NCBI GenBank assembly: GCA_002699145.1
Contig: PABK01000032.1
Span: 1-64,000, forward strand
Reading direction: 5' to 3'
DNA from: Halioglobus sp.
Lineage (GTDB): Bacteria; Pseudomonadota; Gammaproteobacteria; Pseudomonadales; Halieaceae
Length of the DNA stretch: 64,000 nt
The position numbers and the translations under genes were made by a program. Under the pieces are notes generated by a model. That model saw only the letters and a program-made list of their open reading frames with translations, did not search any database and was not told where the DNA came from. This document shows positions 1,509 to 25,660 of this stretch, one piece after another. Every line of letters begins with the position of its first letter. Position 1 is the stretch's first letter.

Positions 1509-1630
1509 AATCAACTCCGTGGTCGCTTAGTGGTCTTGTTGTATTGCCGGGCCGTTGTCCCGGCGGACGACGGTGTGTGCTGTCATTGATTGTAGCCGAG
1601 ATTCCCGCCCCGGCAGGCAGAAAACGGCAT

Positions 1631-1666: not shown

Positions 1667-1718
1667 CCAATACTTGAGACTGACCGGTGCAACTGGCGAC
1701 AGGGCCCGCGCGCTTTCC

Positions 1719-2580: not shown

Positions 2581-5067
2581 TTGGCTGACAGGTATCATAT
2601 TGCCGTCATCGGCGCGGGACCTGCCGGTCTGAGCGCGGCCGGCCGAGCCGCCCACTACGACAGGGAAGCCGGGGCCGCACAGCCGAGCTACATCCTGCTG
2701 GAAGGTTTCTCCACCTTCGCCAAGACCATCCAGAAGTACCAGAAAGGCAAGCACGTCATGGACGAGCCCGGGTTTCTGCAGCTGCGCAGCCCGGTGCCCT
2801 TCGTGGCCGGCAAACGCGAGGAGATCCTCGGCGGCTGGCAGGACAGTATCGACGCCGGCATCAACATTCGCTACGACAGCGAGGTCGCCGCCATCGAGGG
2901 CAGCCGCGGCGACTTCAATATACGCCTTGCCAGCGGCGACAGCATCGGCGCCGAACACATCGTGCTGTCCATCGGCACCCAGGGCAACCCGCGGGCGCTG
3001 GGTGTTCCCGGTGACAACGAGTCGGATTTCGTGCGCTACACCCTGGACGACCCGGAGGATTTCAAGTCCGAGACCATCGTCGTGGTCGGCGCGGGTGACG
3101 CCGCCATCGAAAACGCCATCGCCCTGGCGCAGTACAACAAAGTTTACATCGTCAACCGCAAGAACGAGTTTGCCCGCGCCAAGGAGGGCAACCTGAACGC
3201 CGTACTCGCGGCGATCAACGACAAGGGCCGCGATTTCCACTGCTATTACGAGAGCACTGTGGCCGCGCTGGAGTTGCCCGCCGCGCCCGGTGGCATCGGT
3301 GCAATCGTGCTCAATACGCCATCGGGTGAGGAGCGGGTACCCTGCCACCGCATCATCGCGCGCCTGGGCACCATCCCGCCGCGCAGCTTTGTCGAGTCCT
3401 GCGGCATAGAAATTGCCAGCCCGAGCATGGACGCCGTGCCGGATGTCGACAGGCAGTACCAGAGCAACGTGCCCGGCCTGTACATCATCGGCGCCCTGGG
3501 CGGCTACCCGCTGATCAAGCAGGCCATGAACCAGGGCTACGATGTCATCGAGTACATCCACGGCAAAGACACCAAGCCCGCCGACTATCCGCTACTGCAG
3601 GACCAGTTCTCCGGCCTGCCCTTCGTCATGGACGCCGAGGAGGTCCTCACCTTCCTGCAGAGCAAGGTGCCCATGTTCGGGCAGATGAACCCCCTGGCCT
3701 TCCGCGAGCTGATTATCGAGAGCCGCATCATGGTCAGCCTGCCCGCCGCGGAGATGGGCGACGCCCCCGACGGTGGTGAGCGCTCGACGGTGTTCGTCGA
3801 GGCGGGCAAGCCGGTGTACAGGCACGGCGAGTTCTCCACCAGCTTCTTTACCGTGGTGGTCGGCGACGTGGACATGCAACTCGAGGAAGACGGCCCGTGG
3901 CACGCGATCAGCAACGGCCAGTTTTTCGGCGAAATGAGCCTGATCTCCGGGCGCCCGCGGCAGGGCAGCGCCGTGGTCAAGGAAAATACGATTATCATCG
4001 AAACGCCGCGCCGCATCATGGTCAAGCTGATGAGCTCCAACGAGCAGGTGCGTGAGAGCATCGACCGCGCGTTCAAGATTCGCGCGCTGCAGGCCGCGTT
4101 CAGGCCGCAGATGAGCCTGGAGCAGTTGGGCGATATCGCCGACAGGGTGGCGACCCACGAGTTCAAGGCGGGGGAGGTACTGTTCGAGGAGGGCAGTGAG
4201 GGCGACTGCCTGCACCTCATCCGCTCCGGCACCGTGGTGCTGTCGCGCGGCAGCCGGGAGCTGGTGGTCGCGCAACATCACTCCGGTGAACAGGTCGGCC
4301 AGCTCGCATTGATGGGCGCGCCGCTGCGTCGCGATACCGCGATCGCCGCGGTGCGCACGGAAACCCTGGAAGTGCGTCGCAGCGAGTTCCTGGCGCTGGT
4401 GGACAGCCACCGCGAGCACGTCAAGGTGCTGCAGGACAAGCTCAGCGACAACCTGCGCCAGAGCAACTCCATGGCCTCGCAACCGGAATCCGCCCGCACC
4501 ATCGGCTTCCTCATGGACCAGGGCCTGGGCGAGGCGACCAATGCCCTGATCATCGACGAGACGCTGTGCGTCGGCTGCGACAACTGCGAAAAAGCCTGCG
4601 CGGAAACCCACGGCGGCATCTCGCGCCTGCGCCGCGAGGAAGGCGACTCACTGGCCGCGCTGCACGTGCCCATCGTCTGTCGGCACTGCGAACTGCCGCA
4701 CTGCATGAAGGACTGCCCCCCCGACGCTATCCGCCGCTCCCCCAACGGCGAGGTCTTCATTACCGACAGTTGCATCGGTTGCGGCAACTGCGAGACCAAC
4801 TGCCCCTACGACGCCATCAAACTCAGCTACGCCCCGCAACCCAAACCCGGGCTGTTGTCCTGGCTGTTCTTCGGGCGTGGCGCCGGGCCCGGCGAACCGG
4901 CGAGCTTCGAGCCCTCGGCGCAATCGAAAGACGCCGGCAAGAAGGCGGTAAAATGTGACGCCTGCATGGACCTGGCCGGCGGTCCCGCCTGCGTCCGCGC
5001 CTGCCCCACCGGCGCCGCGGTGCGCCTGGGTCCGGAACAGTTCATCGAACTGGTCGAGGCGCGCTGA
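2581..5067 (+). CDS. FAD oxidoreductase / twin cNMP-binding / four-[4Fe-4S] fusion protein
   Basis: A cytoplasmic fusion of 828 aa with no signal peptide or membrane helix. Residues 1-330 are a two-dinucleotide-binding flavoprotein of the thioredoxin-reductase/YpdA type. GAGPAG (11-16) should bind FAD and GAGDAA (170-175) NAD(P)H; no CxxC disulfide is visible. Residues about 365-495 and 505-615 are cyclic-nucleotide-binding folds. The first keeps a phosphate-cassette-like GEMSLISGRPRQ; the second has Q in place of the usual Glu. Residues 655-828 carry sixteen Cys in the DmsB/HycB pattern for four [4Fe-4S] clusters (CVGCDNCEKAC, CRHCELPHCMKDC, CIGCGNCETNC, CDACM...CVRAC). It starts with TTG behind AGGGAG. 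The haem b gene follows 2 bp later, implying electron flow between NAD(P)H and the membrane, gated by a nucleotide or by another ligand of the CNB folds. Confidence 0.9.
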   Translation: MADRYHIAVIGAGPAGLSAAGRAAHYDREAGAAQPSYILLEGFSTFAKTIQKYQKGKHVMDEPGFLQLRSPVPFVAGKREEILGGWQDSIDAGINIRYDSEVAAIEGSRGDFNIRLASGDSIGAEHIVLSIGTQGNPRALGVPGDNESDFVRYTLDDPEDFKSETIVVVGAGDAAIENAIALAQYNKVYIVNRKNEFARAKEGNLNAVLAAINDKGRDFHCYYESTVAALELPAAPGGIGAIVLNTPSGEERVPCHRIIARLGTIPPRSFVESCGIEIASPSMDAVPDVDRQYQSNVPGLYIIGALGGYPLIKQAMNQGYDVIEYIHGKDTKPADYPLLQDQFSGLPFVMDAEEVLTFLQSKVPMFGQMNPLAFRELIIESRIMVSLPAAEMGDAPDGGERSTVFVEAGKPVYRHGEFSTSFFTVVVGDVDMQLEEDGPWHAISNGQFFGEMSLISGRPRQGSAVVKENTIIIETPRRIMVKLMSSNEQVRESIDRAFKIRALQAAFRPQMSLEQLGDIADRVATHEFKAGEVLFEEGSEGDCLHLIRSGTVVLSRGSRELVVAQHHSGEQVGQLALMGAPLRRDTAIAAVRTETLEVRRSEFLALVDSHREHVKVLQDKLSDNLRQSNSMASQPESARTIGFLMDQGLGEATNALIIDETLCVGCDNCEKACAETHGGISRLRREEGDSLAALHVPIVCRHCELPHCMKDCPPDAIRRSPNGEVFITDSCIGCGNCETNCPYDAIKLSYAPQPKPGLLSWLFFGRGAGPGEPASFEPSAQSKDAGKKAVKCDACMDLAGGPACVRACPTGAAVRLGPEQFIELVEAR

Positions 5068-5069
5068 GT

Positions 5070-5954
5070 ATGCACCAGAGCCTGCTCAGCTGGCAGCGCT
5101 TCCGCTACCTCTACTGGGCACTGCTGCTGGCGGCCGTCAGTATCCTGCTCTATGTCAGCCAGGGGCTGGACGCGTCGCAACCACCCAATGGCGGCACCTG
5201 GCAGGGCTATACCCTGGGCACCATCGGCGCGCTGCTGATCGCCTGGCTCAGCGTGCTGGGCATCCGCAAGCGTCGCTACAGTTCCAATTTGGGCAGCGTA
5301 CAGGGCTGGGCCTCGGCGCACGTGTACCTGGGCATCGCGCTGCTGCTGGTCGCCACCCTGCACTGCGCGGCGCAGTTCGGCGCCAATGTCCACACCCTCG
5401 CCTACGTGCTCATGTGCCTGGTCATCGGCACCGGCATCTACGGCCTGTATGTCTACCTGCACCTGCCAGGCCGCCTGGCGGAGAATCACGCGGGGCGCGA
5501 TCGGCAGGCCTGGCTGGCGGAGCTGGCCGAGGTCGACGACGGCATCCGCGACACCGTGCAACGCTGTGACGCCAACCTGCAGGCCATGGCCCTGTCCGCG
5601 CTGGAACTGACACGCCTGGGCGGCAGCGCCCTCGCCCAGTTGCTGGGCCGCGATCGCTGCCGCATCCGCGTCGAATCGTCCGGCAGCGTCAGCACCACGC
5701 GCAATCCCGAGCAGCAGGTCATCATCGACGAACTGGCCGGGCGCATACCCAATGCCAGCAAACAGGCCGAGGCGGAAGTCCTCAACGACCTGCTGGCGCT
5801 GTTCGGCCGGCGCCAGGTCATCCTGCACCTGCTACGGCGCGACATCCAGTACCGCGCACTACTGAAGATCTGGCTGTACTTTCACGTGCCGCTGACCGTG
5901 GCGCTGCTCGTCGCACTGGCCATCCACATCTTTTCCGTTTTTGTGTACTGGTAG
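5070..5954 (+). CDS. Membrane protein, predicted di-haem b cytochrome
   Basis: 294 aa with four N-terminal predicted helices (about 14-32, 47-65, 82-101, 108-129), a cytoplasmic stretch of about 135 residues and a last helix at 270-292. The third and last helices each carry His pairs 14 apart (H84/H98 and H272/H286). This H-x13-H spacing is typical of bis-His ligation of two haems b stacked across a membrane. No family name is recognised. Its place between a cytoplasmic Fe-S flavoprotein and a membrane-anchored decahaem cytochrome fits a trans-membrane electron relay or quinone-reactive subunit. ATG lies 2 bp after the previous stop. The haem assignment is inferred from spacing only. Confidence 0.75.
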   Translation: MHQSLLSWQRFRYLYWALLLAAVSILLYVSQGLDASQPPNGGTWQGYTLGTIGALLIAWLSVLGIRKRRYSSNLGSVQGWASAHVYLGIALLLVATLHCAAQFGANVHTLAYVLMCLVIGTGIYGLYVYLHLPGRLAENHAGRDRQAWLAELAEVDDGIRDTVQRCDANLQAMALSALELTRLGGSALAQLLGRDRCRIRVESSGSVSTTRNPEQQVIIDELAGRIPNASKQAEAEVLNDLLALFGRRQVILHLLRRDIQYRALLKIWLYFHVPLTVALLVALAIHIFSVFVYW

Positions 5955-5960
5955 CGCGCC

Positions 5961-7676
5961 GTGGATTTCCTGGTCAGGACAGTAACCGGTCGCGGACAGG
6001 GCGAGTCCCTGGAAACCCAATACCAGGGCGACGCCCTGACCCTGGGCGGCGGCGGCAACAACACCCTGCAGCTGCCATCACTGACCGGCCAACTGACCCT
6101 GCGTCCCGACGGCAAGGGAGGCGCGCGTCTCTCCACCAGCGGCTTCAAGGCGAACGTAGACGGCAAGCCCAGCGGCAAGGCGCGGCTGACCGTGGGCGAC
6201 ACATTCAGTGTGCCGGGCTATCGGCTGCAACTGTTCCAGCCTCCGGCCGGCTTTGACCTGGGCCTGGAACTGGAGGCCGAAGGCGTCAGCTACGCCGGCA
6301 GCATGGACCTGGCCGAGCGCATCTTCAGCATGCGCCGGGCGAGCTGGCTCGGCGCCCTGCTGGTACTACTGCTGTTCCTCGTCCTGCCCGGCCTGGTCCT
6401 GCTGCTGCCCGACGCCGCCGAGACCCTGCGCAACTCCCCCCTGCCCGACGACGACCTGTGGATCAGCGGCCCGCTGGCCGGGCCCCACGCCACCGCCGGT
6501 ATCGCCCAGGACTGCCAGGCCTGCCACCGCGAGGCGTTCGTCATGGTCGAGGACGGCGCCTGCATGGACTGCCACCGGGACATGACCGAACACGTGGATC
6601 TCGGCGTCCACCCGCACGCGGAATTCACCGGCGTGCGCTGCGCCAGTTGCCACCGCGAGCACAACGAACCGGCCATGCTGGTGCGTGCGGACAACGGCTT
6701 CTGTACCGATTGCCACCTGCAGCCGCAGCGCTTCAGCGCCGCCGAGGGTATGGCGGCGGTTGCCGCGTTTACCGCGCAGGACCACCCGGCATTTCGCCTG
6801 GACCTGCTGACGCCCCGGGGACCCGGCGGCGCCCACGGCTGGGAAGTCGTCTCCGCACGCCAGGGTGAGGGCGAGCTGAGCGAGACCTCGAACCTCAAGT
6901 TCAATCACGCCGTACACCTGGACCCGGAGAAGGTGCAGCAACAGGGCAGCGGCGCGGCCCTGGGCTGCGACAACTGCCACGTGGCGGAGGATGACGGCGA
7001 GCATTTCGAGCCCATCACCATGGACAACCACTGCCGCGAGTGCCACGGCCTGAGCTTCGACATTTTCGAACCGGACATCGAGTTGCCCCACGGCGACCTG
7101 CGCGCGGCCATCGTCGCCATGGAGGCGCACTTTATCCGCGAATTCACCGACCCGCAGCTGCGCAGCCAGCGCGCCGGCAAGAAACCCCGGCGCATACCCG
7201 GCAAGCGCGAAGCGGCGGCCAGTTGCACCGGTTCGGGGCTGGACTGCGGCCGCGCCGAGGCGCTCAAGGAGGCCAGCTACCAGTTCGCGGAAACCGGCTG
7301 CATCACCTGTCACGTGGTACTCGATACCGGGGCGCAGGACATCATGGACCGCTGGGTGGTATACCCGGTGCGCATCACCCAGGACTGGCTGCGCGGCTCG
7401 GATTTCGATCACGCCAGTCACCTCAGCTTCGCCGCCGAGGACCCGGACACGGTCTGCCTGGGCTGCCACGACGCCGCCGGGTCCAGCGAATCCACGGATA
7501 TACTCATTCCGGATCGCGACAACTGCCTGGGCTGTCACGACGACACCCGCGGGGAGACCTCCGTGAACTGTGTCGGCTGTCATGCCTTCCACCTGCCGGG
7601 TGGAACCCCGGCCCTCGACGCCCGGCCCGGCGACAATGACCCCCACCCCACACCCGTGGGCAGCCAGGGAGACTAG
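5961..7676 (+). CDS. FHA-like domain / TM / decahaem c-type cytochrome
   Basis: 571 aa from a GTG start 6 bp after the previous stop. Residues 1-100 resemble a degenerate FHA fold (an LTLGGGGNNTLQLPS-type strand, then GKARLTVGD). A single helix (about 129-149) preceded by MRR implies cytoplasm-in. The remaining 420 residues hold ten CxxCH motifs: CQACH, CMDCH, CASCH, CTDCH, CDNCH, CRECH, CITCH, two CLGCH and CVGCH. The product should be an inner-membrane-anchored periplasmic cytochrome of cytochrome c3/c7-like type with a cytoplasmic phospho-peptide-binding or scaffold head. Such a head could couple the conduit to the kinase/phosphatase genes downstream. The FHA call is weaker than the haem call. 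Confidence 0.88.
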   Translation: MDFLVRTVTGRGQGESLETQYQGDALTLGGGGNNTLQLPSLTGQLTLRPDGKGGARLSTSGFKANVDGKPSGKARLTVGDTFSVPGYRLQLFQPPAGFDLGLELEAEGVSYAGSMDLAERIFSMRRASWLGALLVLLLFLVLPGLVLLLPDAAETLRNSPLPDDDLWISGPLAGPHATAGIAQDCQACHREAFVMVEDGACMDCHRDMTEHVDLGVHPHAEFTGVRCASCHREHNEPAMLVRADNGFCTDCHLQPQRFSAAEGMAAVAAFTAQDHPAFRLDLLTPRGPGGAHGWEVVSARQGEGELSETSNLKFNHAVHLDPEKVQQQGSGAALGCDNCHVAEDDGEHFEPITMDNHCRECHGLSFDIFEPDIELPHGDLRAAIVAMEAHFIREFTDPQLRSQRAGKKPRRIPGKREAAASCTGSGLDCGRAEALKEASYQFAETGCITCHVVLDTGAQDIMDRWVVYPVRITQDWLRGSDFDHASHLSFAAEDPDTVCLGCHDAAGSSESTDILIPDRDNCLGCHDDTRGETSVNCVGCHAFHLPGGTPALDARPGDNDPHPTPVGSQGD

Positions 7677-7679
7677 ATT

Positions 7680-9710
7680 ATGCAATGGCGCGCAACGTTT
7701 CTTTCAGCGGTCCTGCTACTGAACGCCTGTGGCGGCGGCGGTAGCGGGGGCAACGGCGAGGGTGCATCGGCGCCCACGGACCCGAACAACGAGCAGTGCA
7801 CCGGCCAGTGCGCGGACAGCGGGCAGCGGCTGGAAGTGGCGGATGTGCAGCGGGTGCTCGCGCAGGCGATACACCAGGCGCAGGCGCTGGGCGTCAACGC
7901 AACCATCGCGGTCGTGGACCGGGTGGGCAACGTGCTGGCGGTGCACCAGATGGCGCCGCAGGAAGTCACCATCGCCACGACACTGCCCGCCACGGTCAAT
8001 ACCGGGCTGGAAAACATTGTCCTGCCCGCCCCCATCGGCGGCGATGCGCTGGCGGCGATTGCCAAGGCGGTGACCGGGGCCTACCTGTCCAGTGAGGGCA
8101 ACGCCTTCACCACACGCACCGCCAACCAGATCGTGCAGGAACACTTCAATCCCGGGGAGTTCAACCAGCCCGGCGGGCCACTGTTCGGCGTGCAGTTCAG
8201 CCAGTTCGCCTGCGGCGACTTCGTACTGGATTCACCGGACCCGGGGACCAGCGTCGGCCCGCAACGCTCTCCCCTGGGCCTGTCCGCCGACCCGGGCGGC
8301 TTCCCGCTGTACAAGGGCGGCACACCGGTGGGCGGGGTCGGCGTGATCGCCGATGGCCTGTACAGCATCGACAAGAACATCCTCGACAGCGACCGCGACA
8401 TGGACGAGATGGTCGCCTTCGCCGCCACCTTCGGTTTCGCCGCGCCCAACCAGCGCCGCGCGAACCGTATCACCGTCGAGGGCAAGACATTCCGCTTCAG
8501 CGACGTGGATTTCAACAACCTTCCCGCGGACCCGGAACAGGCGCCGGACTACAGCACGCTGCAGGGTGTGGGTTCGCTGATAAACGTGAACGGCTACGGC
8601 GGCGGCGCCATCGTCGCGGGTACGGTTTTCGGCCGCCCCGAGTCGGGCATCCGCCCGGCGCCCGGCTTCGGTGACCTGGACGCCTTTACCTTCGTCGACG
8701 ACAACAACCAGGTGCGCTTTCCGCCCCGCGCCGGCGGCGACGCCGCCCGCCTGTCGGTGGCGCCGCTGTCCGCCGACGAGGTGCGCACCCTGCTCAGCTC
8801 AGCCATCGCCGTGGCCAATCGCAGCCGCGCGCAGATTCGCCAGCCGGTGGGTACACCGGTGCGGGTCACGGTCTCGGTGGTGGACTCCGAGGGGCGGATC
8901 CTGGGCATGCTGCGCACCCGCGACGCGCCGATTTTCGGCGCCGATGTGTCGCTGCAAAAAGCGCGCACGGCGACGCTGTTTTCTTCCCGCGACGCGGGCG
9001 AGTTCCTGGCGGGACTGCCCGATGCGTTCTACATCGATATCGACCTGGCCAACACGCCGCCGGTGACCACCCGCGACACCATCGTCATCGCGGACTACGT
9101 CGAGGCGGCGAAAAACTTCGTCGGCCCCGGGGCGCTCAGCGACGGCACCGCATTCGCCGATCGCTCCGGCGGCAACCTGTCCCGGCCCTTCTACCCTGAC
9201 GGCATCCGCGGCAATCCCCACGGCCCTTTCAGCAAATCTTTCGTGGATAACCAGTGGAGCGTGTTCTCCAGCGGCCTGCAGCTCGACCTGGCATTCAACC
9301 AGATCGTGCAGCACCTGGCCTTCGTGGCCGGCCTGCCCTTCAACGCCGTCGAATACCTTCCGCCCAGCGACGACCTGATACCGGATGTCACCGACAACTG
9401 CGCCGGGGCCACCTCGGCGCCCCGCGTCGCCAACGGCATCCAGATTTTCCCCGGTAGCGTGCCTGTTTACCGCGGCGGGGAACTGGTCGGCGGCATCGGC
9501 GTTTCCGGCGACGGCGTCGACCAGGACGACATGGTCGCCTTCCTGGGCCTGCACGAGGCGGGCGTGGCGCTAGGCGGTGCAATCAATAACGCGCCCAGGG
9601 CTATCCGCGCAGACAATCTCACACCGATGGGCGACCGGCTGCGCTACGTACAGTGCCCGCAGACCCCGTACATCGACAGCAGCGAACAGCAAGTCTGTTC
9701 CGGCAAGTAG
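7680..9710 (+). CDS. Lipoprotein with two HbpS/GlcG-like haem-binding domains
   Basis: 676 aa. A lipoprotein signal (LLLNAC lipobox, Cys at about 17) is followed by a Gly-rich tether. Two copies of the HbpS/GlcG (DUF336) fold are visible: ATIAVVDRVGNVLAV near residue 78 and VTVSVVDSEGRILGM near residue 400, each followed by the usual Lys-Ala-rich helix and a GG-containing strand. Proteins of this fold bind haem or small cofactors. This one is about four times the length of a single-domain member. It lies 3 bp after the decahaem gene, with its Shine-Dalgarno GGGAGA overlapping that stop, so it is translationally linked. It may be a haem-handling or accessory lipoprotein of the cytochrome complex. 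Confidence 0.82.
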   Translation: MQWRATFLSAVLLLNACGGGGSGGNGEGASAPTDPNNEQCTGQCADSGQRLEVADVQRVLAQAIHQAQALGVNATIAVVDRVGNVLAVHQMAPQEVTIATTLPATVNTGLENIVLPAPIGGDALAAIAKAVTGAYLSSEGNAFTTRTANQIVQEHFNPGEFNQPGGPLFGVQFSQFACGDFVLDSPDPGTSVGPQRSPLGLSADPGGFPLYKGGTPVGGVGVIADGLYSIDKNILDSDRDMDEMVAFAATFGFAAPNQRRANRITVEGKTFRFSDVDFNNLPADPEQAPDYSTLQGVGSLINVNGYGGGAIVAGTVFGRPESGIRPAPGFGDLDAFTFVDDNNQVRFPPRAGGDAARLSVAPLSADEVRTLLSSAIAVANRSRAQIRQPVGTPVRVTVSVVDSEGRILGMLRTRDAPIFGADVSLQKARTATLFSSRDAGEFLAGLPDAFYIDIDLANTPPVTTRDTIVIADYVEAAKNFVGPGALSDGTAFADRSGGNLSRPFYPDGIRGNPHGPFSKSFVDNQWSVFSSGLQLDLAFNQIVQHLAFVAGLPFNAVEYLPPSDDLIPDVTDNCAGATSAPRVANGIQIFPGSVPVYRGGELVGGIGVSGDGVDQDDMVAFLGLHEAGVALGGAINNAPRAIRADNLTPMGDRLRYVQCPQTPYIDSSEQQVCSGK

Positions 9711-9724
9711 AGGGAGGGTAACCG

Positions 9725-11602: not shown

Positions 11603-11603
11603 A

Positions 11604-16648: not shown

Positions 16649-17628
16649 CGACGACCGGGCCTGATACCTGCAAAGTCGGCGGCCATACCGACATTGGCCG
16701 ACGCAAGCACAATGAGGACAGTTTCCTCATCGACCCTGAACTGGGCCTGTACGTGGTCGCCGACGGCGTCGGCGGGCACAAGGCCGGTGAGGTGGCCAGC
16801 AACATCACCTGCCAGGTGGTGCGCCGCGAGGTCGCCGCCGGCACCGATCTCGCCGCGGCGGTGCTACTGGCCAACCGCGAGGTGTCAGACGCTGTCGCCA
16901 GCGGCACCGGCAAGGCCGGCATGGCTTCCACCGTGGTCGCCGCGGTGGTTCGCGACGGGCTGTGCGACATCGCCTGGGTGGGCGACAGCCGCGCCTACCT
17001 GTTGTGGCGCGACAGGCTGTCCCTGGTCAGTCGCGACCACTCCTACGTGGAGGCGCAGCTGGCCGCCGGCAGGATTACCCCGGAGGAGGCGCTGACCCAC
17101 CCGCGCCGCAATGTCATCCTGCAGGCAATCGGCCTGCACGAGGACGGCGAATTGAACGTGGGGCGCAACAAGGGCCGCCTGCAACCCGGCAGTCGCCTGC
17201 TGTTATGCAGCGACGGGATCAGCGATCCGCTGGACGCGGAACAGCTCGCCCAGATACTGATGCGCGGCGGCGATCCCGAGGCGGCCTGCGAGCGCCTGGT
17301 CGCACTGGCCCTGCAGTGCGGCGGCAAGGACAACGCGACCGCGGTGCTGGTGGACACCCCCGCGACAGCCGACGATGACACGGCGCACGACCCACCGCAG
17401 GCGACCTGGACTTTCGACTCCGCAAGCGGCAGCTACGACGGCCAGGCACCGCTGGCACCCCGCGAGGAAGCGCCACACGACCCCCTGGGACAGACGCAGA
17501 TCATGTCGGTCAGCGAGGCGGAGCAAAGCGCACTAGAGACTGGCAGCGGCGGCAATCGCGCCCGATACTGGTGGCTGGCCCTGCTGCTTGGCGCCCTCGC
17601 ACTGGCACTGGCCGCTTCACTGCAGTAG
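16645..17628 (+). CDS. Membrane-anchored PP2C-type protein Ser/Thr phosphatase
   Basis: 327 aa. The GTG start overlaps the cytochrome stop in a GTGA junction, so the two are translationally coupled. All metal-binding PP2C motifs are present: RRKHNEDSF, VVADGVGGHKAGE, WVGDSRAYLL, RDHS, CSDGISD and KDNATAVLV. After residue 250 comes an acidic linker and a C-terminal membrane helix (about 303-325), which keeps the catalytic domain in the cytoplasm. It should dephosphorylate Ser/Thr-P proteins made by the kinase at 21346. Coupling to a cytochrome gene is the strongest sequence link between the electron-transfer and signalling halves of this locus. Confidence 0.93.
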   Translation: MTTTGPDTCKVGGHTDIGRRKHNEDSFLIDPELGLYVVADGVGGHKAGEVASNITCQVVRREVAAGTDLAAAVLLANREVSDAVASGTGKAGMASTVVAAVVRDGLCDIAWVGDSRAYLLWRDRLSLVSRDHSYVEAQLAAGRITPEEALTHPRRNVILQAIGLHEDGELNVGRNKGRLQPGSRLLLCSDGISDPLDAEQLAQILMRGGDPEAACERLVALALQCGGKDNATAVLVDTPATADDDTAHDPPQATWTFDSASGSYDGQAPLAPREEAPHDPLGQTQIMSVSEAEQSALETGSGGNRARYWWLALLLGALALALAASLQ

Positions 17629-17660
17629 AACGCCCCGGTTTAACCTGGGAGAGATGAGCA

Positions 17661-18884
17661 ATGGCAGGACAAGACATGACTTCCGAAATTACCGCACAGC
17701 TGGTTGGCGAGGACGGCACCAGCTATGAACTGAGCGGGAACCAGGTCCTGGGACGGTCGGAAAAGGACGACATCACCATCCCGAACAAGAAAATCTCGCG
17801 CGGCCACGCCCGCTTCTGCTTCCAGGACGGGCGCGCGACCGTGGAAGACCTGGGCTCGACCAACGGCACGCGCGTCAACATGCGCAAGATCGACGCCAAC
17901 CAGCCCACGGAATTGCACAACGGCGATACGGTGAGCTTCGATACGGTGGATCTGCGCGTGGAGATACTGGGTCTCGAGGAGCAGGACGACGCCGACGACG
18001 ACGCCACGGTGTTCGGCAGCGTGGACGATGACGCCACGGTGTTCGAAGCCCCCGCGGAGCCCCCTGCAGCGAGGGAAAAAGCTGCGGCGCCAGCGCCGCC
18101 GCCGGAACCTGCAGCTGAACCCGAGCCAGCGCCCGAACCCGAACCCGAGCCCCAGCCCGAACCAGAGCCCGAACCAGAGCCCGAACCAGAGCCCGAACCA
18201 GAGCCCGAGCCCGAACCCGAGCCCGCTGCAGAGCCGGCAGCGGCACAGGTCGACGCCAACGCCATCGCGCCCGGGTCGCAGCGCACGGTCAGCGCCCGCC
18301 AGGGCAGTGACCTGCTGCCCGCCGCGTTCCTTGAGGGGGAACAGGCGCTGGAGGACGAAGAAACCCGCATGATGTCCCCCGAGGAAATGAAGATCGACAT
18401 GGAAGCGCTGGGTGATGCGGACATCAGTGTCGACGCCGAGGCGCAGCAGCCCCACCTGGTGGTGCTGTTTTCCTCCGGCGAGCGCGCCAGCGTACTGCTG
18501 GATTTCACCCCGGCACAGGAACCGGATGTGTGGGAGATCGGCCGCCGCTCACCCTGTGATATCGTCCTGGACGACGAGTACGTTTCCAAGCGCCACGTGC
18601 AACTCGTGCACCTGGACGGCAAGTGGAAACTGGTCAACCTGCTCGGCTCCAACCCGCCCTACGTCAACGGCGAGAAAGTGCTGAGCAAGTTTCTCGGCGA
18701 CAACGACAAGATCAGGCTGGGCAAGACCGTACTGGTGTTCAAGTCGGGCCCGGCACGCGCGGCGGTAAAATCGGCCGGCGGCAAAAACACGCCGGCCAGC
18801 ACTGGCGGCAACTCGGCTCGTCTGGCACTCATCGGCTTCGGCGTTGTACTCGCGGCCATCGCCGCCTGGTGGCTGCTGCGCTAG
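17661..18884 (+). CDS. Tail-anchored protein with two FHA domains
   Basis: 407 aa. An N-terminal FHA domain (about 10-95; [24 protein letters not shown]) is joined by an acidic, Pro/Glu-rich linker (about 115-200, an EP dipeptide tract) to a second FHA-like domain (about 275-350; [26 protein letters not shown]). The second has lost the usual S/T-NG pair, so phosphopeptide binding there is less certain. A C-terminal helix (about 385-405) anchors it with both FHA domains in the cytoplasm. It lies 32 bp after the phosphatase with its own Shine-Dalgarno (GGGAGA). It is probably the adaptor that gathers phosphorylated partners at the membrane. Confidence 0.9.
18117..18228 (+). repeat. In-frame Glu-Pro tandem repeat (GAACCAGAGCCC units)
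   Basis: Within the two-FHA gene, hexanucleotide units (GAACC[A/C]/GAGCCC) give an EP dipeptide tract. The central part holds four near-identical 12-bp copies of CCCGAACCAGAG. Copies are a multiple of 3 bp, so length changes would alter linker length without shifting frame. Confidence 0.85.
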
Positions 18885-18907
18885 ATTGGCCGGGCGAGCG
18901 TCGCGAC

Positions 18908-19774
18908 TCAGCGCAGGCCCACCTGCCCCAGCAGTCGCGGCCAGTGCTCGACCCAGCAGCAGCGGTGATCGTAACCGGGCTGGCGCAGCAGGCGAATAGC
19001 GGCGCCGCGCGCACCCGGCGACTGCACAAAGGACTCTGCGATAGCCGGCGGGACCTGGACGTCGTCCACTCCCACCAGGTGGACCTGGCGCAGGCGTGCG
19101 GGCCAGCCGGGCAGGCGTGCGGGGTCAGAGCCCGGCGCCAGCGGCGTGTAATCGTGCAACCGCGTCCACGCGGCGACATCCAGCGGCGCGGCGATCGTCA
19201 CCACGGTGTCCACACGCGGGTGCTGGCGCGCTGCCAGCAATGCGACCACACCGCCGCCACTGTAGCCAACCAGGGTAATCGCCGCTTGCGGATGACGCCG
19301 GCCGATATCTGTCAGCGCCGCCAGCACCGCGTCGACAACAACCGGCGCATAGCGTTGCAGGGTCCACAGCTCGGGGCCGCAGGGCGGTTCGGTCGCGGCG
19401 CCGTAATAGCAGGGCCTGGCCAGAAACACCGCCGGTGCCGGGTCCGCCGCGGCCAGGCGCAGGCCCAGGTGCCGCCGCGGCGTCGGGTCGCGCGACACGC
19501 CGAAACGGCTGCTGAAGGCCAGACCATCTCCCCCAAGGTAGACATGCAGGCGCGGCACATCCGCGGGTATGTCGGGGCCGAACAGGCGCAGCGTGAACTC
19601 GCCAGCGCGCAGCGGCTCGCCGCGCCAGCCTGCGGCGAGAGCCGGCTCGCCAGGCCGACCCGCGGAAAGGTCGACGCAGGCGCCGAGACAAAGCACCAGG
19701 CAGCTCAGGCAAACCCTGATCCTGGCCCTGACCCTGACAAAAGAAAAAGCCCGATTTACATGAACTGTAGTCAA
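18908..19774 (-). CDS. Lipoprotein alpha/beta-hydrolase-like protein
   Basis: 288 aa on the strand opposite to its neighbours. The TTG at 19774 is the only usual start in frame ahead of the signal. The N-terminus has a long basic stretch, then VCLSCLVLCLGAC, giving a lipobox (LGAC, Cys at about 33). The alpha/beta-hydrolase core includes GYSGGG (nucleophile elbow GxSxG), a later Asp (VGVDD) and a His near the C-terminus (PGYDH), plausible as a catalytic triad. The substrate is unknown. It ends 24 bp from the two-FHA gene in convergent orientation and is divergent from the autotransporter gene. It looks inserted into, rather than part of, the signalling locus. Confidence 0.75.
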   Translation of the reverse strand: MTTVHVNRAFSFVRVRARIRVCLSCLVLCLGACVDLSAGRPGEPALAAGWRGEPLRAGEFTLRLFGPDIPADVPRLHVYLGGDGLAFSSRFGVSRDPTPRRHLGLRLAAADPAPAVFLARPCYYGAATEPPCGPELWTLQRYAPVVVDAVLAALTDIGRRHPQAAITLVGYSGGGVVALLAARQHPRVDTVVTIAAPLDVAAWTRLHDYTPLAPGSDPARLPGWPARLRQVHLVGVDDVQVPPAIAESFVQSPGARGAAIRLLRQPGYDHRCCWVEHWPRLLGQVGLR

Positions 19775-19833
19775 TATTGTCCTAATATGGATCGGCGATA
19801 ATAGAAAAAAATACTTTCACGGAGACTCACACA
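19775..19833. promoter_or_regulatory. AT-rich divergent control region
   Basis: A 59-bp AT-rich gap between the hydrolase and autotransporter genes in otherwise GC-rich DNA. A GATAAT hexamer (19797-19802) lies before the plus-strand gene. No convincing -35 at 16-18 bp is visible. GGAG precedes the ATG at 19834. Confidence 0.3.
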
Positions 19834-21324
19834 ATGGCAATCCCCAAAGGCAGGTTTTTATACCATGGAGCCCTGGCGTGCCTTTTCGGCCACGCACTGG
19901 CGGCAAGCGCGCAACAGGACCCGGCAACACCACTGGGTCAGGCGGTCGAGGCAGCGGCCAACAACTCCGCCCTGCAGACGGTGACCGGCGACGCGGTCAA
20001 CCAGACCTGCGGTGAACTGGTACCGGAGTACGCCCAAACCTCCAACCCGAGACTGCCGCCGACCTCCGCGGAGGAAGCCTTGTTTTTCCGCTGCAGCGAC
20101 ATGGTCGGCACCGCGCTGGGCCTGCTCGGCCAGCCGGGTATCGGCACGGACCTGGGCTGGAGCAACGAACAGCTCGCCGAGGGTATGCAGCAGCTCACCG
20201 GGGAGGAGCAGGTATCCAAGGGTCGTCTCGCCACCGAGGGTTCCAACGGTCAGTTCGCGAACATCGGCATGCGCCTTGACGCGATTCGCGCGGGCGCCCG
20301 CGCCACCGCCGGCGGTCTCAGCCTGGCCTACAACGGCGCGCCGGTGGCCGGCGGCAACGCGGGCGATGACGGCACAGGCTGGGGCTGGTTCCTCAACGGG
20401 GCCATGGGTTCCGGCGATCGCGATGCGACACAGCGCGAGGACGACTACGATTACGATTCCTACGGGGCCACCCTGGGCTTCGACTACCAGTTCGAATCCG
20501 GCCTCGTCGCCGGCTTCGCCCTGGGCTATCACGACTACGAGGTGGACTTCGCCAACGTCAGTTCCTTCCAGACCGGGCCGCAACTGACCAACACCCAGGC
20601 CGGCGGCGGTTTCGATACCGATGGCTACGCCCTCTCCGGCTACGCCATCGGCCACGTGGGCCGCTTTTATATCGACGGCCTGGTCAGCGTGGGACAATCG
20701 GATATCGACAGCGAGCGCATCGTGCGCTACAACGGCAGCGCCTCCGGTCAGGGCACCGGCCAGAACCTGGTCGTCGACCGCTCCATGCGCGGCAGCACCG
20801 ACAGCGACACCTACAGCCTGGGTGTCTCCACCGGCACCAGCTTTGAAATGGGCTGGGCCGACCTCTCCCTCGACCTGGGGGTCAGCTACGTGGATGTCTC
20901 CATCGATGGCTACACGGAAAAGGACATCGCCCGCGGCAATGATACCAACGAGTTCAGCGGTCTCAACCTGGCCTACGACGACCAGGACTTCGACTCCCTG
21001 CAATCCAGTCTCGGCTTCCAGCTGTCCAGGGCCTACAGCGTTTCCAGCGGCGTCCTGCTGCCCTATCTCAACGCCGCCTGGCGCCACGAATTTGAAAACG
21101 AATCCAGTACGATGAAGGCGCGCTACGCGGCTCAGGATTCGGGACAGGTGTTCAACCTCAACGTGGTGACCGACGACCCCGACGAGGACTTCTACGAGGT
21201 CGGCCTGGGCCTGTCGGCGGTGTTCGCCAACAACATCCAGGCGTTCGTCGACTACCGCACAACTCTCGACCTGGACAAGGTGGACGCGCAGCTGTTCACC
21301 GTCGGCATCCGGGGCTCATTCTAG
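19834..21324 (+). CDS. Autotransporter-type outer-membrane beta-barrel protein
   Basis: 496 aa. A signal peptide ends near ALAASAQ. A short mostly helical region of about 150 residues follows (with a conserved-looking Cys pair, NQTCGEL and FFRCSD), then a barrel of about 310 residues. Its strand-turn pattern (YGATLGFDYQFESGLVAGFA, DVSIDGYTEK...) and terminal VGIRGSF match the autotransporter beta-domain fold. The passenger is very short for a type Va autotransporter, so this may be an autotransporter-fold porin rather than a secreting one. It is encoded 21 bp upstream of the kinase gene and is probably co-transcribed, which makes it a candidate envelope partner of the kinase. Confidence 0.82.
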   Translation: MAIPKGRFLYHGALACLFGHALAASAQQDPATPLGQAVEAAANNSALQTVTGDAVNQTCGELVPEYAQTSNPRLPPTSAEEALFFRCSDMVGTALGLLGQPGIGTDLGWSNEQLAEGMQQLTGEEQVSKGRLATEGSNGQFANIGMRLDAIRAGARATAGGLSLAYNGAPVAGGNAGDDGTGWGWFLNGAMGSGDRDATQREDDYDYDSYGATLGFDYQFESGLVAGFALGYHDYEVDFANVSSFQTGPQLTNTQAGGGFDTDGYALSGYAIGHVGRFYIDGLVSVGQSDIDSERIVRYNGSASGQGTGQNLVVDRSMRGSTDSDTYSLGVSTGTSFEMGWADLSLDLGVSYVDVSIDGYTEKDIARGNDTNEFSGLNLAYDDQDFDSLQSSLGFQLSRAYSVSSGVLLPYLNAAWRHEFENESSTMKARYAAQDSGQVFNLNVVTDDPDEDFYEVGLGLSAVFANNIQAFVDYRTTLDLDKVDAQLFTVGIRGSF

Positions 21325-21345
21325 GCGGGCGGTGAAGGCGACTCT

Positions 21346-22911
21346 ATGGACGAAGGGCACTCGCCACACAGCCCCGACCCCGGAGTCGCCAACGAGGGCG
21401 TGAGTCCCAATGACGAAACCGCCCCGGCGCCCACGTCTCCGGGCAGCGGAACGCGCGTCGGCGGTGCCGCGGCCGGCGCCGCCGCCACGCAACCCCGGAC
21501 GGAGGGCGCCGAGCCCACCGCCGGGGATCTCATTTCCGGCCGCTACCGCCTGGAAAAGGTGCTCGGCGAAGGTGGCATGGGCAAGGTTTTCCTGGCCATC
21601 GACGAGCTCTACGCGGGGGAGTTCCAGGATCGCAAGGCGCAGGTCGCGCTAAAGTTCCTCGGCAAGAAATTTGCCAGCCATTCCGTCTCGCGCATGGCCC
21701 TGCAGCGCGAAACCCGCAAGTCCCAGCAACTGGCCCACCCGAACGTCGTGCGCGTCATGCATTTCGACCAGCACGCGGGTCACCCCTACATGATCATGGA
21801 GCACATGCGCGGACAGCCGCTGGATGAATTCATGAAGACCCACGCCCGGGACGGCCTGCCGCTGGACCAGGCATTACCCATCATCGACGGCATGGCGGCG
21901 GGGCTGCACTACATCCACCAGGAAGGCCTGGTGCATTCGGACTTCAAGCCCAACAACGTGTTTGTGACCGAGGACGGCACGGCGAAAATCCTCGACCTGG
22001 GGATCGCCAGGATCAACGAGGCGCTGGTCGAAAGCAGCGAACAGACCCTGTTCGACGCCGGCGCGCTGGGCGCGATGACGCCGGCCTACGCCAGCTGCGA
22101 GATGTTCGAACTGCAGATGCCGGACCCGCGCGACGATATCTACGCCCTGTCCTGCGTCATCTACGAACTGCTCAGTGGCGCCCACCCCTTCGGACGCACG
22201 GCGGCGCCCAAGGCCCGCGCCGCGGGGATGAAACCGCAGCGGCTGGAGAGCCTGGGACGCAGTCGCTGGCGCGCGCTGAACAAGGGCCTGGCCTTTCAGC
22301 GCGAGGAGCGCACGCGCAGCGCCCAGGCGCTGCTCGAGGCCCTGCGCGGTGACCGCGCCAGGCGGCGCCTGCAGCTCACGGCGCTGATGCTGGTCGCCGG
22401 GCTGGCCATGGCGGTTGCCATCGGCAGCGGCTACATGGCGCTACAACCGGAAGATCCCGATACACTGTTCCGCGTGGAGCTCGCGTCGCTTTCGGCCAAG
22501 GCGCCGCAGCTGACAGCGGCCGACGAGGCGCGTATCGGACGCTGGCTGGACCAGGGCAACGCCTACCTGCAGGTGGCGGAGGAGGTCTTCGCCACCGGCG
22601 ACGTCCTGGCGGCCCACCAGATTCTGCAGGTCGGCGCCGACAATGCGCTGGAGGCCTTCCTCTCGATACTGCGCCTGGAAAATTCCGAGGCGGCGAAGAA
22701 CGGCGTGCTCGCGCTGGTCGACAAATACGCCGACTGGACACAGGCGAAGCTCGACGAGCCGGACCCGACCGTGGCGCTGTGGCTGGCCTGTCATGGCCTG
22801 GCGATACATAAGAATCACCGCGAACTGCTGTCACTGAGCGATACCGCGCGACGGCGCATAGACGATTCGAGCAACACCGACTGCGCCTTCATGCGCACAC
22901 TGACGCCCTGA
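21346..22911 (+). CDS. Transmembrane Hanks-type Ser/Thr protein kinase
   Basis: 521 aa. After a low-complexity N-terminus of 60 residues comes the kinase domain (about 66-335): G-loop GEGGMGKVF, ATP-binding Lys in ALKFL, a catalytic loop reading HSDFKPNN, and DLG in place of DFG. The usual HRD arginine is Ser, as in non-RD kinases, so activation need not depend on activation-loop phosphorylation. A helix at about 345-367 leads to a C-terminal domain of about 150 residues, presumably periplasmic, with no recognised fold. It should phosphorylate FHA partners encoded nearby and be opposed by the PP2C at 16645. The caspase-like gene follows 31 bp later. Confidence 0.92.
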   Translation: MDEGHSPHSPDPGVANEGVSPNDETAPAPTSPGSGTRVGGAAAGAAATQPRTEGAEPTAGDLISGRYRLEKVLGEGGMGKVFLAIDELYAGEFQDRKAQVALKFLGKKFASHSVSRMALQRETRKSQQLAHPNVVRVMHFDQHAGHPYMIMEHMRGQPLDEFMKTHARDGLPLDQALPIIDGMAAGLHYIHQEGLVHSDFKPNNVFVTEDGTAKILDLGIARINEALVESSEQTLFDAGALGAMTPAYASCEMFELQMPDPRDDIYALSCVIYELLSGAHPFGRTAAPKARAAGMKPQRLESLGRSRWRALNKGLAFQREERTRSAQALLEALRGDRARRRLQLTALMLVAGLAMAVAIGSGYMALQPEDPDTLFRVELASLSAKAPQLTAADEARIGRWLDQGNAYLQVAEEVFATGDVLAAHQILQVGADNALEAFLSILRLENSEAAKNGVLALVDKYADWTQAKLDEPDPTVALWLACHGLAIHKNHRELLSLSDTARRRIDDSSNTDCAFMRTLTP

Positions 22912-22942
22912 CGGCGGGCGGGCGGACAAGGAGGGAAGAATC

Positions 22943-25660
22943 ATGAGAATGCGCAACATCCTGGGAGCATCTTTACTGCTCGCCTTCGTACCGGCCTCTC
23001 TCGCGCCGGCCCAGCAACAGGGCCTGAGCAAGAACTACGACAGTGTCGATCCGAACAAGCCCGTGGTCTGCCTGCTGCCCGGACGGGTGCGCAAGGTGGG
23101 CGGCATGATGACCTACCTGGAACGTCGCAAACCGGTCGAACTGGCCGCCTCGGAGTGTGAAATTCGCGGCGGGGAATACACACTCTACGACCGCGCCAAC
23201 TACCAGACCGCGCTAAAGCTGTGGCTGGAAGCGGCGGAACAGGGCGATGCCACGGCCGCGGTGCACGTCGGCGAAATCTACGAGAAGGGCTGGGTCGGCG
23301 AGCCCGATTACGCCACCGCCGCCCGCTGGTACCGCCAGGCGGCGGCGGAAGGCGACACCCGCGCGCAGCGCCGGCTGGCCTATTTTTACGAGAACGGCCT
23401 GGGCGTGGAACAGGACCAGGAGCAGGCCCTGGGGCTGTGGCGCTCCGCCCTCGGGCTGAAAGAGGAACTGGTGCTGGCCTCACAGGTCGAGGCCGCCAAG
23501 TCGCAGGCGCAGCGTGAGATCGACAGGCTGGTGGCGCAGCTCGACCGGCAGAACCAGCGCACCGGGCAACTGCAGCGCAGCCTGGATGAGGCGCGTGGGA
23601 CCCTGCACGACCAGACCACCGCCCTGGAGACGGAGCGCGCCGCGGTGCGCCGGCTGCAGGAGGAGCTGGCGCTGTCCGCACAGGACGGCGGCGACCCGGG
23701 CCGGCTGCGGGAGCTCGAAAGCCAGCTCGCCGCCAGCGAGTCGCGTATCGACGAGCAGCGCATCAATATCGAACTGCTGGAGGCGGATATCGCCGCCCAG
23801 CGCGCCCAGGTGGCGGCGAGCCAGCGCCAGGCGCAAGTACGCAGCAAGCAACTGGAGCGCGTGCAGGAAGACCTGATCGCCGAGTCCAGTCGCGGCGACG
23901 CCCTGCTGGTGCAGTTGCAGGAGAAGGACGCCAGCCTGCGCTCCCTGGAACAGCAACTGGCCGCCGCCCAGGCGCGCCTGGAGCAGGGACGCGAGCGCCA
24001 GTCCGAACTGGCCGCGCGCGCCCGGGCGGCGCAGGACGATGACGCACGCGCACAACTGGAGCAGGAACTGGCCACGGCGCGGGCCGAGGTCGACACGCAG
24101 AAAGCGCGCACGGCCGGCCTGCAACGTGAGATAGCGGCCCAGCGCGACAGCTTCGAGTCGCAACTGGCGGACTCCAGGGTGCGCGAAAACGAACTGAACA
24201 GCGCGCTGGCGCAAAGCCGCACGGAAAAGGAGGCGCTGGCGCGGCAGCTCGAACAGGCCAGTGCGCGACTCGTCGCGGTTGACCGGGAGCTGACCCGCAC
24301 ACGCTATGCCCTGGCCGACCGCGAGGCGGACGCCGCGGGCCTGCGCGAACAACTGGACACCCTGGCTGCCCAGGGCGGCAGCGAGGCGCAGCGTCGCTCG
24401 CTGCGCGAACGCATGGAGATACAGCAGCGGGAAATCGCGGCGCTGCGCGAAGAAAAGCAACAACTCATCGCCGGCTGGGAGGCGACACAGCGGGAGCGGG
24501 ACGAGGCGCGCGCGAACCTGGCAGAGGAAGTGGACACCACCAGCTGGTTGCGGGTGGAACTGGAGTCAGCCGGCGGCAGGCTGGCGGCCACCCGCGAGGA
24601 ACTGGCCCGCGTACAGCTCGCGCTGGAAGAGGCGAACTTCGCGCGCGATCGACTGGTCAGCGATATCGGGCGGCTGGAACAGGACCTCGCCGCCTCGCGT
24701 GAGCGCAGCGTGCAGGACCGGCAGCGTATGGAGGACCAGCTGCGACGTTACCGCGAACAACTGGCCAGCAGCGCGCCGCAGACCGACAGCCTGCGCCAGC
24801 AGGCCTCACGCCTGCAGAGTGACCTGGACCTGTACGGCCAGCGGCAGCAGGGCCGTGTGCTGGCGATGCGCGGCCTGCGCAAACCGGTGGAATCGATTAC
24901 CGAAATCCCCAGGGCGGCCCGGCGCGCGAATTACCACGCCATCGTGATCGCCAATTACGACTACCGTTACCTGCCTGACCTGGTCTCCCCGCCCTTCGAC
25001 GCCAACCAGCTGAAACAGATGCTGGAGGACGCGTACGGCTTCAATGTCGAGGTGCTCATCAACCTCAATCGTTCCGACATGTACAAGGCCCTGGCCATGG
25101 TGCGCGAGTTCGACGAGAACGATCACGTACTGCTCTATTACGCCGGTCACGGCAAGATGGACGAGTACGGCGACGGCTTCTGGCTGCCCACCGACTACCA
25201 CGAATCACAGCCTTTGGCGGAGACGGTCTCCAGCGCCGACCTGACTCGTACACTGAATTTCAGTGAGGCCAAGCACGTCATCGTCATGGCGGACTCCTGC
25301 TACTCCGGCGCGCTGGCGCGCAACGCCGACCCGGTTATCCGCAAAAGCGTACCGGCGCTGATGAACTACTGGATCGCCAACAAGTCGCGCACCGTGCTCA
25401 CCTCGGGCGGCCTCAAGCCGGTGCTGGATGACGGACCCGGCGGCCACTCGGTATTCGCCTCGGCGCTGCTGCAGGTCCTGCAGTCGAACGCCGGCGCGCT
25501 CAACGGGGAGATGCTGCACGCGCAGGTCTATGAACTGGTACAGCAGCAGGCCGCGCTGCTGGGCTACCTGGACCAGCGACCGCGTTTCGCGGTGATCGAG
25601 GACGCCGGCCACGAGAACGGCCAGTTCGTCTTCCTGCGCGGACAAGCCTCGCGCGGCTGA
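22943..25660 (+). CDS. Secreted Sel1 / coiled-coil / caspase-fold (C14-like) protein
   Basis: 905 aa, started by ATG behind a strong GGAGGG. A signal peptide (1-24) predicts periplasmic location. Residues about 85-175 are two or more Sel1-like repeats (AAVHVGEIYEKGWVGEPDY, AYFYENGLGVEQD). Residues about 180-640 form a very long Glu/Gln/Arg coiled coil. Residues about 660-900 are a caspase-type domain with both catalytic residues: His in YYAGHG (about 732) and Cys in DSCYSG (about 785). Caspase-fold proteins cleave after basic or acidic residues. The target here is unknown. Co-location with a kinase whose sensor domain is periplasmic suggests they act together on the envelope. Confidence 0.9.
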   Translation: MRMRNILGASLLLAFVPASLAPAQQQGLSKNYDSVDPNKPVVCLLPGRVRKVGGMMTYLERRKPVELAASECEIRGGEYTLYDRANYQTALKLWLEAAEQGDATAAVHVGEIYEKGWVGEPDYATAARWYRQAAAEGDTRAQRRLAYFYENGLGVEQDQEQALGLWRSALGLKEELVLASQVEAAKSQAQREIDRLVAQLDRQNQRTGQLQRSLDEARGTLHDQTTALETERAAVRRLQEELALSAQDGGDPGRLRELESQLAASESRIDEQRINIELLEADIAAQRAQVAASQRQAQVRSKQLERVQEDLIAESSRGDALLVQLQEKDASLRSLEQQLAAAQARLEQGRERQSELAARARAAQDDDARAQLEQELATARAEVDTQKARTAGLQREIAAQRDSFESQLADSRVRENELNSALAQSRTEKEALARQLEQASARLVAVDRELTRTRYALADREADAAGLREQLDTLAAQGGSEAQRRSLRERMEIQQREIAALREEKQQLIAGWEATQRERDEARANLAEEVDTTSWLRVELESAGGRLAATREELARVQLALEEANFARDRLVSDIGRLEQDLAASRERSVQDRQRMEDQLRRYREQLASSAPQTDSLRQQASRLQSDLDLYGQRQQGRVLAMRGLRKPVESITEIPRAARRANYHAIVIANYDYRYLPDLVSPPFDANQLKQMLEDAYGFNVEVLINLNRSDMYKALAMVREFDENDHVLLYYAGHGKMDEYGDGFWLPTDYHESQPLAETVSSADLTRTLNFSEAKHVIVMADSCYSGALARNADPVIRKSVPALMNYWIANKSRTVLTSGGLKPVLDDGPGGHSVFASALLQVLQSNAGALNGEMLHAQVYELVQQQAALLGYLDQRPRFAVIEDAGHENGQFVFLRGQASRG

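Follow-up and report, generated by a model that had tools for sequence, protein, structure and literature searches.

The 64,000-nucleotide stretch of Halioglobus sp. DNA analyzed here (the window; positions 1 to 64,000 of contig PABK01000032.1, assembly GCA_002699145.1) contains an operon in which multihaem cytochrome genes are followed by genes for a PP2C phosphatase and a protein with two forkhead-associated (FHA) domains, the 2xFHA protein. Nine genes on one strand (2581-18884) form this single operon, with two overlaps and no gap longer than 32 bases (Table 1). The first seven, termed the core, encode the redox proteins. The start of the PP2C gene overlaps the end of the pentahaem cytochrome gene by 4 bases (16645-16648), as noticed in a preliminary description of the window that proposed one joined system of cytochromes, kinase, phosphatase, FHA proteins and a caspase-fold protein. 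All of the proteins listed there were found at their positions, and strong Pfam matches back the Hanks kinase, caspase-fold and 2xFHA identities. Two assignments were corrected: the 7680-9710 product is an HbpS-like lipoprotein and the 19834-21324 product is an autotransporter-type barrel. The FHA gene at 1674-2468 stops 112 bases before the operon and, apart from the window, the closest relative (G012) alone has it at this position, making its membership in the operon doubtful.

Table 1 Genes of the operon and its immediate surroundings in the window. aa, amino acids; TM, transmembrane segment; cNMP, cyclic nucleotide monophosphate; IMP, inner-membrane protein.
Feature	Position	Strand	Evidence
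2-TM + FHA protein, upstream of operon	1674-2468	+	FHA 7.1e-19
FAD/NAD(P)H pyridine-nucleotide reductase with two cNMP-binding domains and four [4Fe-4S], cytoplasmic, 828 aa	2581-5067	+	Pfam Pyr_redox_2 9e-24; cNMP_binding 2.8e-29 (2 stretches); Fer4 family
Inner-membrane di-haem b protein (IMP, PCC3/PCC4 type), 294 aa	5070-5954	+	WX3HX13H at H84/H98 and H272/H286; [ST]GXXG
Periplasmic decahaem cytochrome c with one TM and a cytoplasmic FHA-like domain, 571 aa	5961-7676	+	10 CXXCH
HbpS/GlcG-like tandem lipoprotein, 676 aa	7680-9710	+	Pfam HbpS-like 5.8e-22; lipobox LLNAC
Outer-membrane beta-barrel, ~18 strands, AlgE-like, 625 aa	9725-11602	+	AlphaFold2 pLDDT 79; Foldseek AlgE 1.1e-16
Secreted decahaem cytochrome, C-terminal LVIVD beta-propeller, 1256 aa	11604-15374	+	10 CXXCH; LVIVD 3.3e-15; propeller in model
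c554-like pentahaem cytochrome, 430 aa	15356-16648	+	4 CXXCH + CX4CH; Cytochrome_C554 1.8e-12
PP2C phosphatase, C-terminal TM anchor, 327 aa	16645-17628	+	PP2C_2 5.4e-14; Stp1/IreP family model 194.5 bits
2xFHA protein anchored by a C-terminal TM, DDATVF motif twice in an acidic linker, 407 aa	17661-18884	+	FHA 4e-34, 2 stretches
Alpha/beta-hydrolase-like lipoprotein	18908-19774	-	Abhydrolase_1 1e-5
Autotransporter-type beta-barrel protein (neighboring module)	19834-21324	+	PF03797 2.2e-45
Hanks-type Ser/Thr kinase, one TM (neighboring module)	21346-22911	+	Pkinase 1.7e-36
Secreted Sel1 - coiled coil - caspase-fold protein (neighboring module)	22943-25660	+	Peptidase_C14 9e-20; GHG and DSCYSG motifs

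The three cytochromes of the core hold 25 c-type haem motifs: ten CXXCH in each decahaem protein and four CXXCH plus one CX4CH in the pentahaem protein. Among 69, 81 and 75 orthologues of the 571-, 1256- and 430-aa proteins, respectively, all of these motifs are invariant or nearly so. The ten CXXCH are kept in all 69 orthologues of the 571-aa decahaem and in 80/81 of the 1256-aa decahaem, and the CX4CH is kept in 75/75 pentahaem orthologues. The near-invariance indicates that the motifs are not due to chance and agrees with the earlier count of about 25 sites (10+10+5). The di-haem b candidate of the preliminary description has both W-X3-H-X13-H motifs and [ST]GXXG in 66/66 orthologues. Its FAD/Fe-S/cNMP protein also stands, having the expected Pfam matches together with 16 cysteines (four [4Fe-4S] clusters) that are conserved in at least 90% of 68 orthologues. 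The GXGXXG motifs of this protein are conserved, as is the cNMP phosphate-binding cassette FGE..R, which is best preserved in the first of the two cNMP domains.

In 84,980 species genomes, a scan found the 1256-aa protein to have 383 confirmed relatives. Locus counts are based on the best 80 of these and are biased toward close relatives. The seven core genes recur as a block across Pseudomonadota, and of the 61 loci that exceed 16 kb, 54 have all seven. Among 369 genomes drawn evenly from Gammaproteobacteria, 13 encode the decahaem-propeller protein and 16 the FHA-decahaem. The inner half of the core is found without the outer half nearby in loci L136 and L138, and the HbpS-barrel-decahaem trio is found without inner-membrane genes nearby in L105 (5934-13771), where it is possibly a minimal outer unit. 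The core is thus built of two modules, each of which can occur alone. Cytochrome-maturation (Ccm) genes adjoin the betaproteobacterial loci. Genes for 2-oxoacid dehydrogenase E1/E2 and an AsnC-type regulator lie downstream in L058, L059, L075, L096 and L098 (Steroidobacter, Woeseiaceae). Records whose titles name Klebsiella pneumoniae and Candidatus Marinimicrobia (L103, L106, L108) also have the cluster; the tree places them among unrelated proteobacterial loci, and these records are probably misnamed bins. No paper on the whole cluster or its phosphatase/FHA link was found among the openly licensed literature, and the cluster is real and conserved and, as a system, seems to be undescribed.

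The PP2C and 2xFHA genes belong to the cytochrome system. By the preliminary description, the two modules would be merely adjacent if homologous cytochrome sets elsewhere never neighbored such genes; for PP2C and FHA this is not so. In the 59 testable loci, those with at least 2.5 kb of sequence behind the core, PP2C and/or FHA genes directly follow the core in 30 (PP2C in 27, FHA in 30). A hidden Markov model search of the 80 loci gave 32 PP2C matches, every one of them no more than 3 kb from the core end; the other 352 kb of flanking sequence had none. Clustering of all neighbors without preselection returned PP2C (24 loci) and 2xFHA (22 loci) as the commonest non-core genes, followed by the caspase (7), autotransporter (7), kinase (6) and glutamate dehydrogenase (5). 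The core-linked genes span Halieaceae, Alcanivoracaceae, Steroidobacteraceae, Marinobacter, Granulosicoccaceae and others, and their order varies, with 2xFHA preceding PP2C in L063, L068 and L091. On the decahaem tree they occupy a broad gammaproteobacterial group as well as a second one (L082, L089, L090, L103), a distribution that requires about 10 changes, some of which come from contig ends. The core is held by 11 of 61 genomes of the family, 10 detected by search plus G445, whose contig starts inside the pentahaem gene. A close PP2C lies beside the core in 11/11 of these, and 1/50 core-negative genomes (G019) has one (Fisher p 2.9e-11, uncorrected for relatedness). The host genome encodes two PP2C proteins and six kinases in total.

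A second FHA connection lies within the cytochromes. The preliminary description placed an FHA domain on the decahaem cytochrome, and this holds by homology: among 61 N-termini of orthologues, 44 have a Pfam FHA match with E ≤ 0.01, and the N-terminal profile matches the GarA/OdhI FHA structures (E 6.6e-12). The window protein itself gives no Pfam FHA match, and in place of the signature GR, His and NG it has GG, Q and DG. Its domain is by homology a genuine FHA that has lost the phosphate-binding residues in the window lineage, and phospho-reading by it is not supported there. The GR is retained in 31/39 decahaem orthologues lacking PP2C. Its arginine is kept in 35/40 loci without a 2xFHA neighbor and lost in 26/27 with one (Fisher 1.5e-12), yet this pattern reflects only 3-5 changes on the tree and their independence cannot be shown. 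The coincidence of arginine loss with the 2xFHA neighbor suggests that the fused reader was replaced by the separate 2xFHA protein. Because the usual SxxH has seldom kept its serine, even outside the window lineage, phosphothreonine binding by the fused domain in general is uncertain. The 2xFHA orthologues, with few exceptions, retain the signature residues in both FHA domains. Most also have a C-terminal TM and, in the linker, acidic-x-T-V/I motifs (DDATVF in the window protein) that resemble the phosphoacceptor motifs of GarA and OdhI. The kinase, PP2C and FHA domains are all recognizable, the FHA domains of the 2xFHA orthologues with most of their signature residues.

Cyclic nucleotides may provide another link to signaling. 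Nucleotide cyclases adjoin the cluster in at least four lineages. A cyclase-FHA fusion lies between the pentahaem and PP2C genes in L082 (15057-15974), L089 (11436-12329) and L090 (15121-16014), and cyclases are located beside the FAD gene in L113 and L120 and beside the FHA-decahaem gene in L138. These neighbors fit the conserved cNMP pockets of the FAD protein. The adjoining cyclases and the cNMP domains, taken with the phosphatase and FHA genes, suggest two signal inputs at the cytoplasmic face.

It is rather improbable that the PP2C/2xFHA pair is an independent phospho-signaling or housekeeping unit, for example for envelope or central-metabolism control, which shares a promoter with a redox complex that is not itself phospho-regulated. 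Such a unit would account for the loci in which the core stands without PP2C and 2xFHA and for the similar-scoring PP2C of G019, which occurs without a core. The association nevertheless persists across several orders despite rearranged gene order, a cyclase-FHA fusion is inserted in L082, L089 and L090, and an FHA domain is fused to the cytochrome itself.

The kinase and caspase genes are a different matter. They had been described as joined to the cytochrome genes; a conserved minus-strand gene that was overlooked (18908-19774) intervenes between the 2xFHA gene and the autotransporter, kinase and caspase genes. A hydrolase gene 48-61% identical to it occupies the same position in L041, L043 and L049, and the hydrolase, autotransporter, kinase and caspase genes constitute a module separate from the operon. 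Of the single system first proposed, the PP2C/FHA connection to the cytochromes is retained and the kinase/caspase part is set apart. A functional place for the kinase, caspase and autotransporter in the redox system is doubtful. The module adjoins the operon in the window, G012, L041 and G441/L043, and a second kinase-caspase pair is located upstream in G031 and G020. The window-type kinase occurs in 5/11 core-positive versus 1/50 core-negative family genomes (p 4e-4, uncorrected). Against this stand the opposite-strand gene, the distance between module and operon in G031 and G453 (22-24 kb) and in G436 (355 kb), the absence of the module near the core in G026, G033 and G430, and its presence without the cytochrome core in G425 and, in more divergent form, G019. 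Kinase presence did not differ significantly between loci with and without PP2C/2xFHA (p 0.11). Other kinase genes flank the core or lie near it: immediately before it in Marinobacter (L076, whose genome has two kinases), immediately after it in L051 and L077, upstream of it in L091 and nearby in L078. A kinase is often close to the core, though it is not always the window-type kinase at the window position. A second, shorter Sel1-caspase and kinase pair is found upstream of the FAD gene in L048 and G031/L067 (Parahaliea, Chromatocurvus), and Parahaliea has the window-type kinase-caspase pair downstream as well.

The outer half of the core is its most conserved part. The median identity of the 1256-aa decahaem-propeller protein to 59 loci is 67%, the highest of any component; the values are 59% for the barrel, 55% for HbpS and 34% for the FHA-decahaem. 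Conservation concentrated in the outer parts argues for a specific partner or substrate. The AlphaFold model of the 1256-aa cytochrome has a mean pLDDT of 58 with only the propeller half being good, and its fold matches are propellers only. A sequence search found no solved relatives of the barrel or of the decahaem.

An outer-membrane barrel had been listed as part of a trans-envelope electron conduit, and the barrel is present; an MtrCAB-type arrangement is unsupported. MtrCAB/MtoAB membership was rejected on both family models and fold. The MtrB barrel has 26 strands. The 9725-11602 barrel has no MtrB/PioB match (PF11854/TIGR03509), and its model has about 18 strands and is AlgE-like. PF11854 does find true copies at C33 and C24 of the same genome. 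The 571-aa decahaem scores 31.7 bits against TIGR03508 (MtrA/DmsE; cut-off 192.2), whereas the host's own MtrA (261) and DmsE (286) pass. The 1256-aa decahaem has no match to TIGR03507 (OmcA/MtrC), for which the host's MtrC reaches 481 bits. The modeled strand number and fold, and the success of the same family models with genuine Mtr and Dms copies, make a haem wire through this barrel doubtful.

These data bear on two sub-readings of one complex, and the confidences attached to the readings in this work do not sum to one. The first, an extracellular porin-cytochrome conduit of the PCC3/PCC4 kind in which the barrel sheathes a cytochrome and the propeller decahaem lies outside the cell, is somewhat unlikely. 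The IMP signature is identical to that of PCC3/PCC4, the cluster has a porin and three multihaem proteins, one relative (L044) comes from a biocathode metagenome-assembled genome, and the host also has MtrCAB. The 18-strand barrel with AlgE as its best match and haem numbers of 10/10/5 instead of the 10/5/4 of PCC4 speak against it, and the strong conservation of the outer decahaem is more in keeping with a specific enzyme than with a wire. The second is that of a substrate-specific periplasmic or outer-membrane oxidoreductase, in which a charged compound would enter or leave through the AlgE-like porin and be reduced or oxidized by the decahaem-propeller protein. This is possible, although short of probable. 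It is consistent with the AlgE/OprD-like fold with many invariant charged residues, the extreme conservation of the decahaem, barrel and HbpS proteins and the survival of this trio in L105. Neither a known catalytic haem site nor a substrate family was identified, and the resemblance to the selenite/tellurite protein ExtM is weak; ExtM membership of the 1256-aa protein was rejected because NF040943 gives 54 bits against a cut-off of 800.

On balance, the best explanation is that the operon encodes a trans-envelope multihaem oxidoreductase with cytoplasmic signal inputs. The NAD(P)H-binding FAD/[4Fe-4S] protein, the di-haem b subunit and the FHA-anchored decahaem would make up an inner-membrane half. 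The pentahaem cytochrome would pass electrons between it and an outer half of AlgE-like barrel, HbpS-like lipoprotein and decahaem-propeller protein, which may act on an acceptor or a donor located either in the periplasm or on the cell surface. One cytoplasmic input would be cNMP, bound by the FAD/Fe-S protein. In the gammaproteobacterial group, threonine phosphorylation set by a Hanks kinase, in the host genome plausibly the neighboring 21346 kinase, would be read by the 2xFHA protein and reversed by the membrane-anchored PP2C. The complex is best read as modular and NAD(P)H/quinone-linked, gated by cNMP and, in the gammaproteobacterial group, by Ser/Thr phosphorylation. What the analysis establishes is the content, conservation and domain integrity of the operon; its electron route, its gating, the pairing of kinase and substrate, and the direction and substrate of electron transfer are inferred.

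Several observations weigh against this reading. The barrel appears too narrow for an MtrAB-type haem wire, the kinase and caspase are on a separate transcription unit, and the window decahaem FHA is without its phosphate-binding residues. Roughly half of the loci also have the core without PP2C and 2xFHA, which makes the phospho input dispensable. The fuller proposal, an undescribed and widespread respiratory complex switched by cNMP and Ser/Thr phosphorylation, in which the fused FHA was replaced in one lineage by a double-FHA protein, is put forward tentatively. Multihaem respiration is usually thought to be transcriptionally controlled. The built-in genes for a phosphatase and phosphothreonine readers suggest that the cell can switch this machine by protein phosphorylation and, if confirmed, this would be post-translational, kinase-type gating of trans-envelope electron flow. 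Culturable hosts for testing are Halieaceae, Marinobacter and Steroidobacter.

The FHA domains have GarA/OdhI (Rv1827) as their best-scoring match, and phosphoacceptor-like motifs lie beside the FHA in both. The 2xFHA protein differs in having two FHA domains and a membrane anchor, and control of 2-oxoglutarate or glutamate dehydrogenase as by GarA/OdhI is not known for the FHA proteins of the cluster. A glutamate dehydrogenase (ELFV) gene adjoins the cluster in the window (165-1514, minus strand) and in L051, L057, L063, L068, L071, L110 and G012, which include several distant lineages; this neighbor is reminiscent of FHA control of glutamate dehydrogenase by GarA. The type VI secretion proteins PpkA/PppA/TagH also combine a kinase, a PP2C and an FHA protein; here such proteins are linked to cytochromes, and no secretion-system genes were recognized among the genes examined. 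Cluster 403 of the Gallionellaceae pangenome, listed for 27 genomes (PMC10734462, Table 1), is annotated as a "Forkhead-associated protein" and has 10 haem motifs. It agrees with the FHA-decahaem in annotation and haem number and is listed there without a system or regulation. The 1256-aa protein is weakly similar to ExtM along four of its haem motifs, and ExtM belongs to another gene set.

PCC3 and PCC4 are putative porin-cytochrome clusters (He et al. 2017, PMC5566968), and PCC4 is defined with three multihaem cytochromes of 4, 5 and 10 haems (PMC5566968). The cluster shares with them an IMP with two WX3HX13H motifs and [S/T]GXXG, an outer-membrane porin and several multihaem cytochromes. 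The IMP of PCC3/PCC4 is described with five TM segments. The barrel gene adjoins a decahaem gene, as the porin gene does cytochrome genes in PCC3/PCC4, and the inner-membrane motifs are found in all 66 orthologues with S or T at the first position of SGXXG. As in PCC4 subgroup II, a Fer4_11 domain (pfam13247, 5.5e-10) is encoded directly upstream of the 5070 gene, within 2581-5067. The invariant 10/10/5 haem numbers depart from PCC4. Relative to the published descriptions of PCC3/PCC4, the cluster also differs in its FAD and cNMP domains, FHA-fused decahaem, propeller decahaem, PP2C and 2xFHA protein.

MtrCAB, MtoAB and DmsEFAB have multihaem cytochromes and an envelope barrel in common with the cluster, which is set apart from them by its AlgE-like barrel of about 18 strands and by decahaem proteins that fall below the TIGR03508/TIGR03507 cut-offs. 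The host genome has genuine MtrA-MtrB-MtrC genes (L134, G000:C24:97000-115000, at 6344-11851), with a putative further glutamate dehydrogenase downstream (16409-17665), and a DmsEFAB-type extracellular DMSO/selenate-family reductase cluster (L133, G000:C33:30000-48000, at 5367-12714). Mtr genes are already known in Halieaceae (PMC8805035), and the operon adds to these bacteria a multihaem outer-membrane system distinct from MtrCAB.

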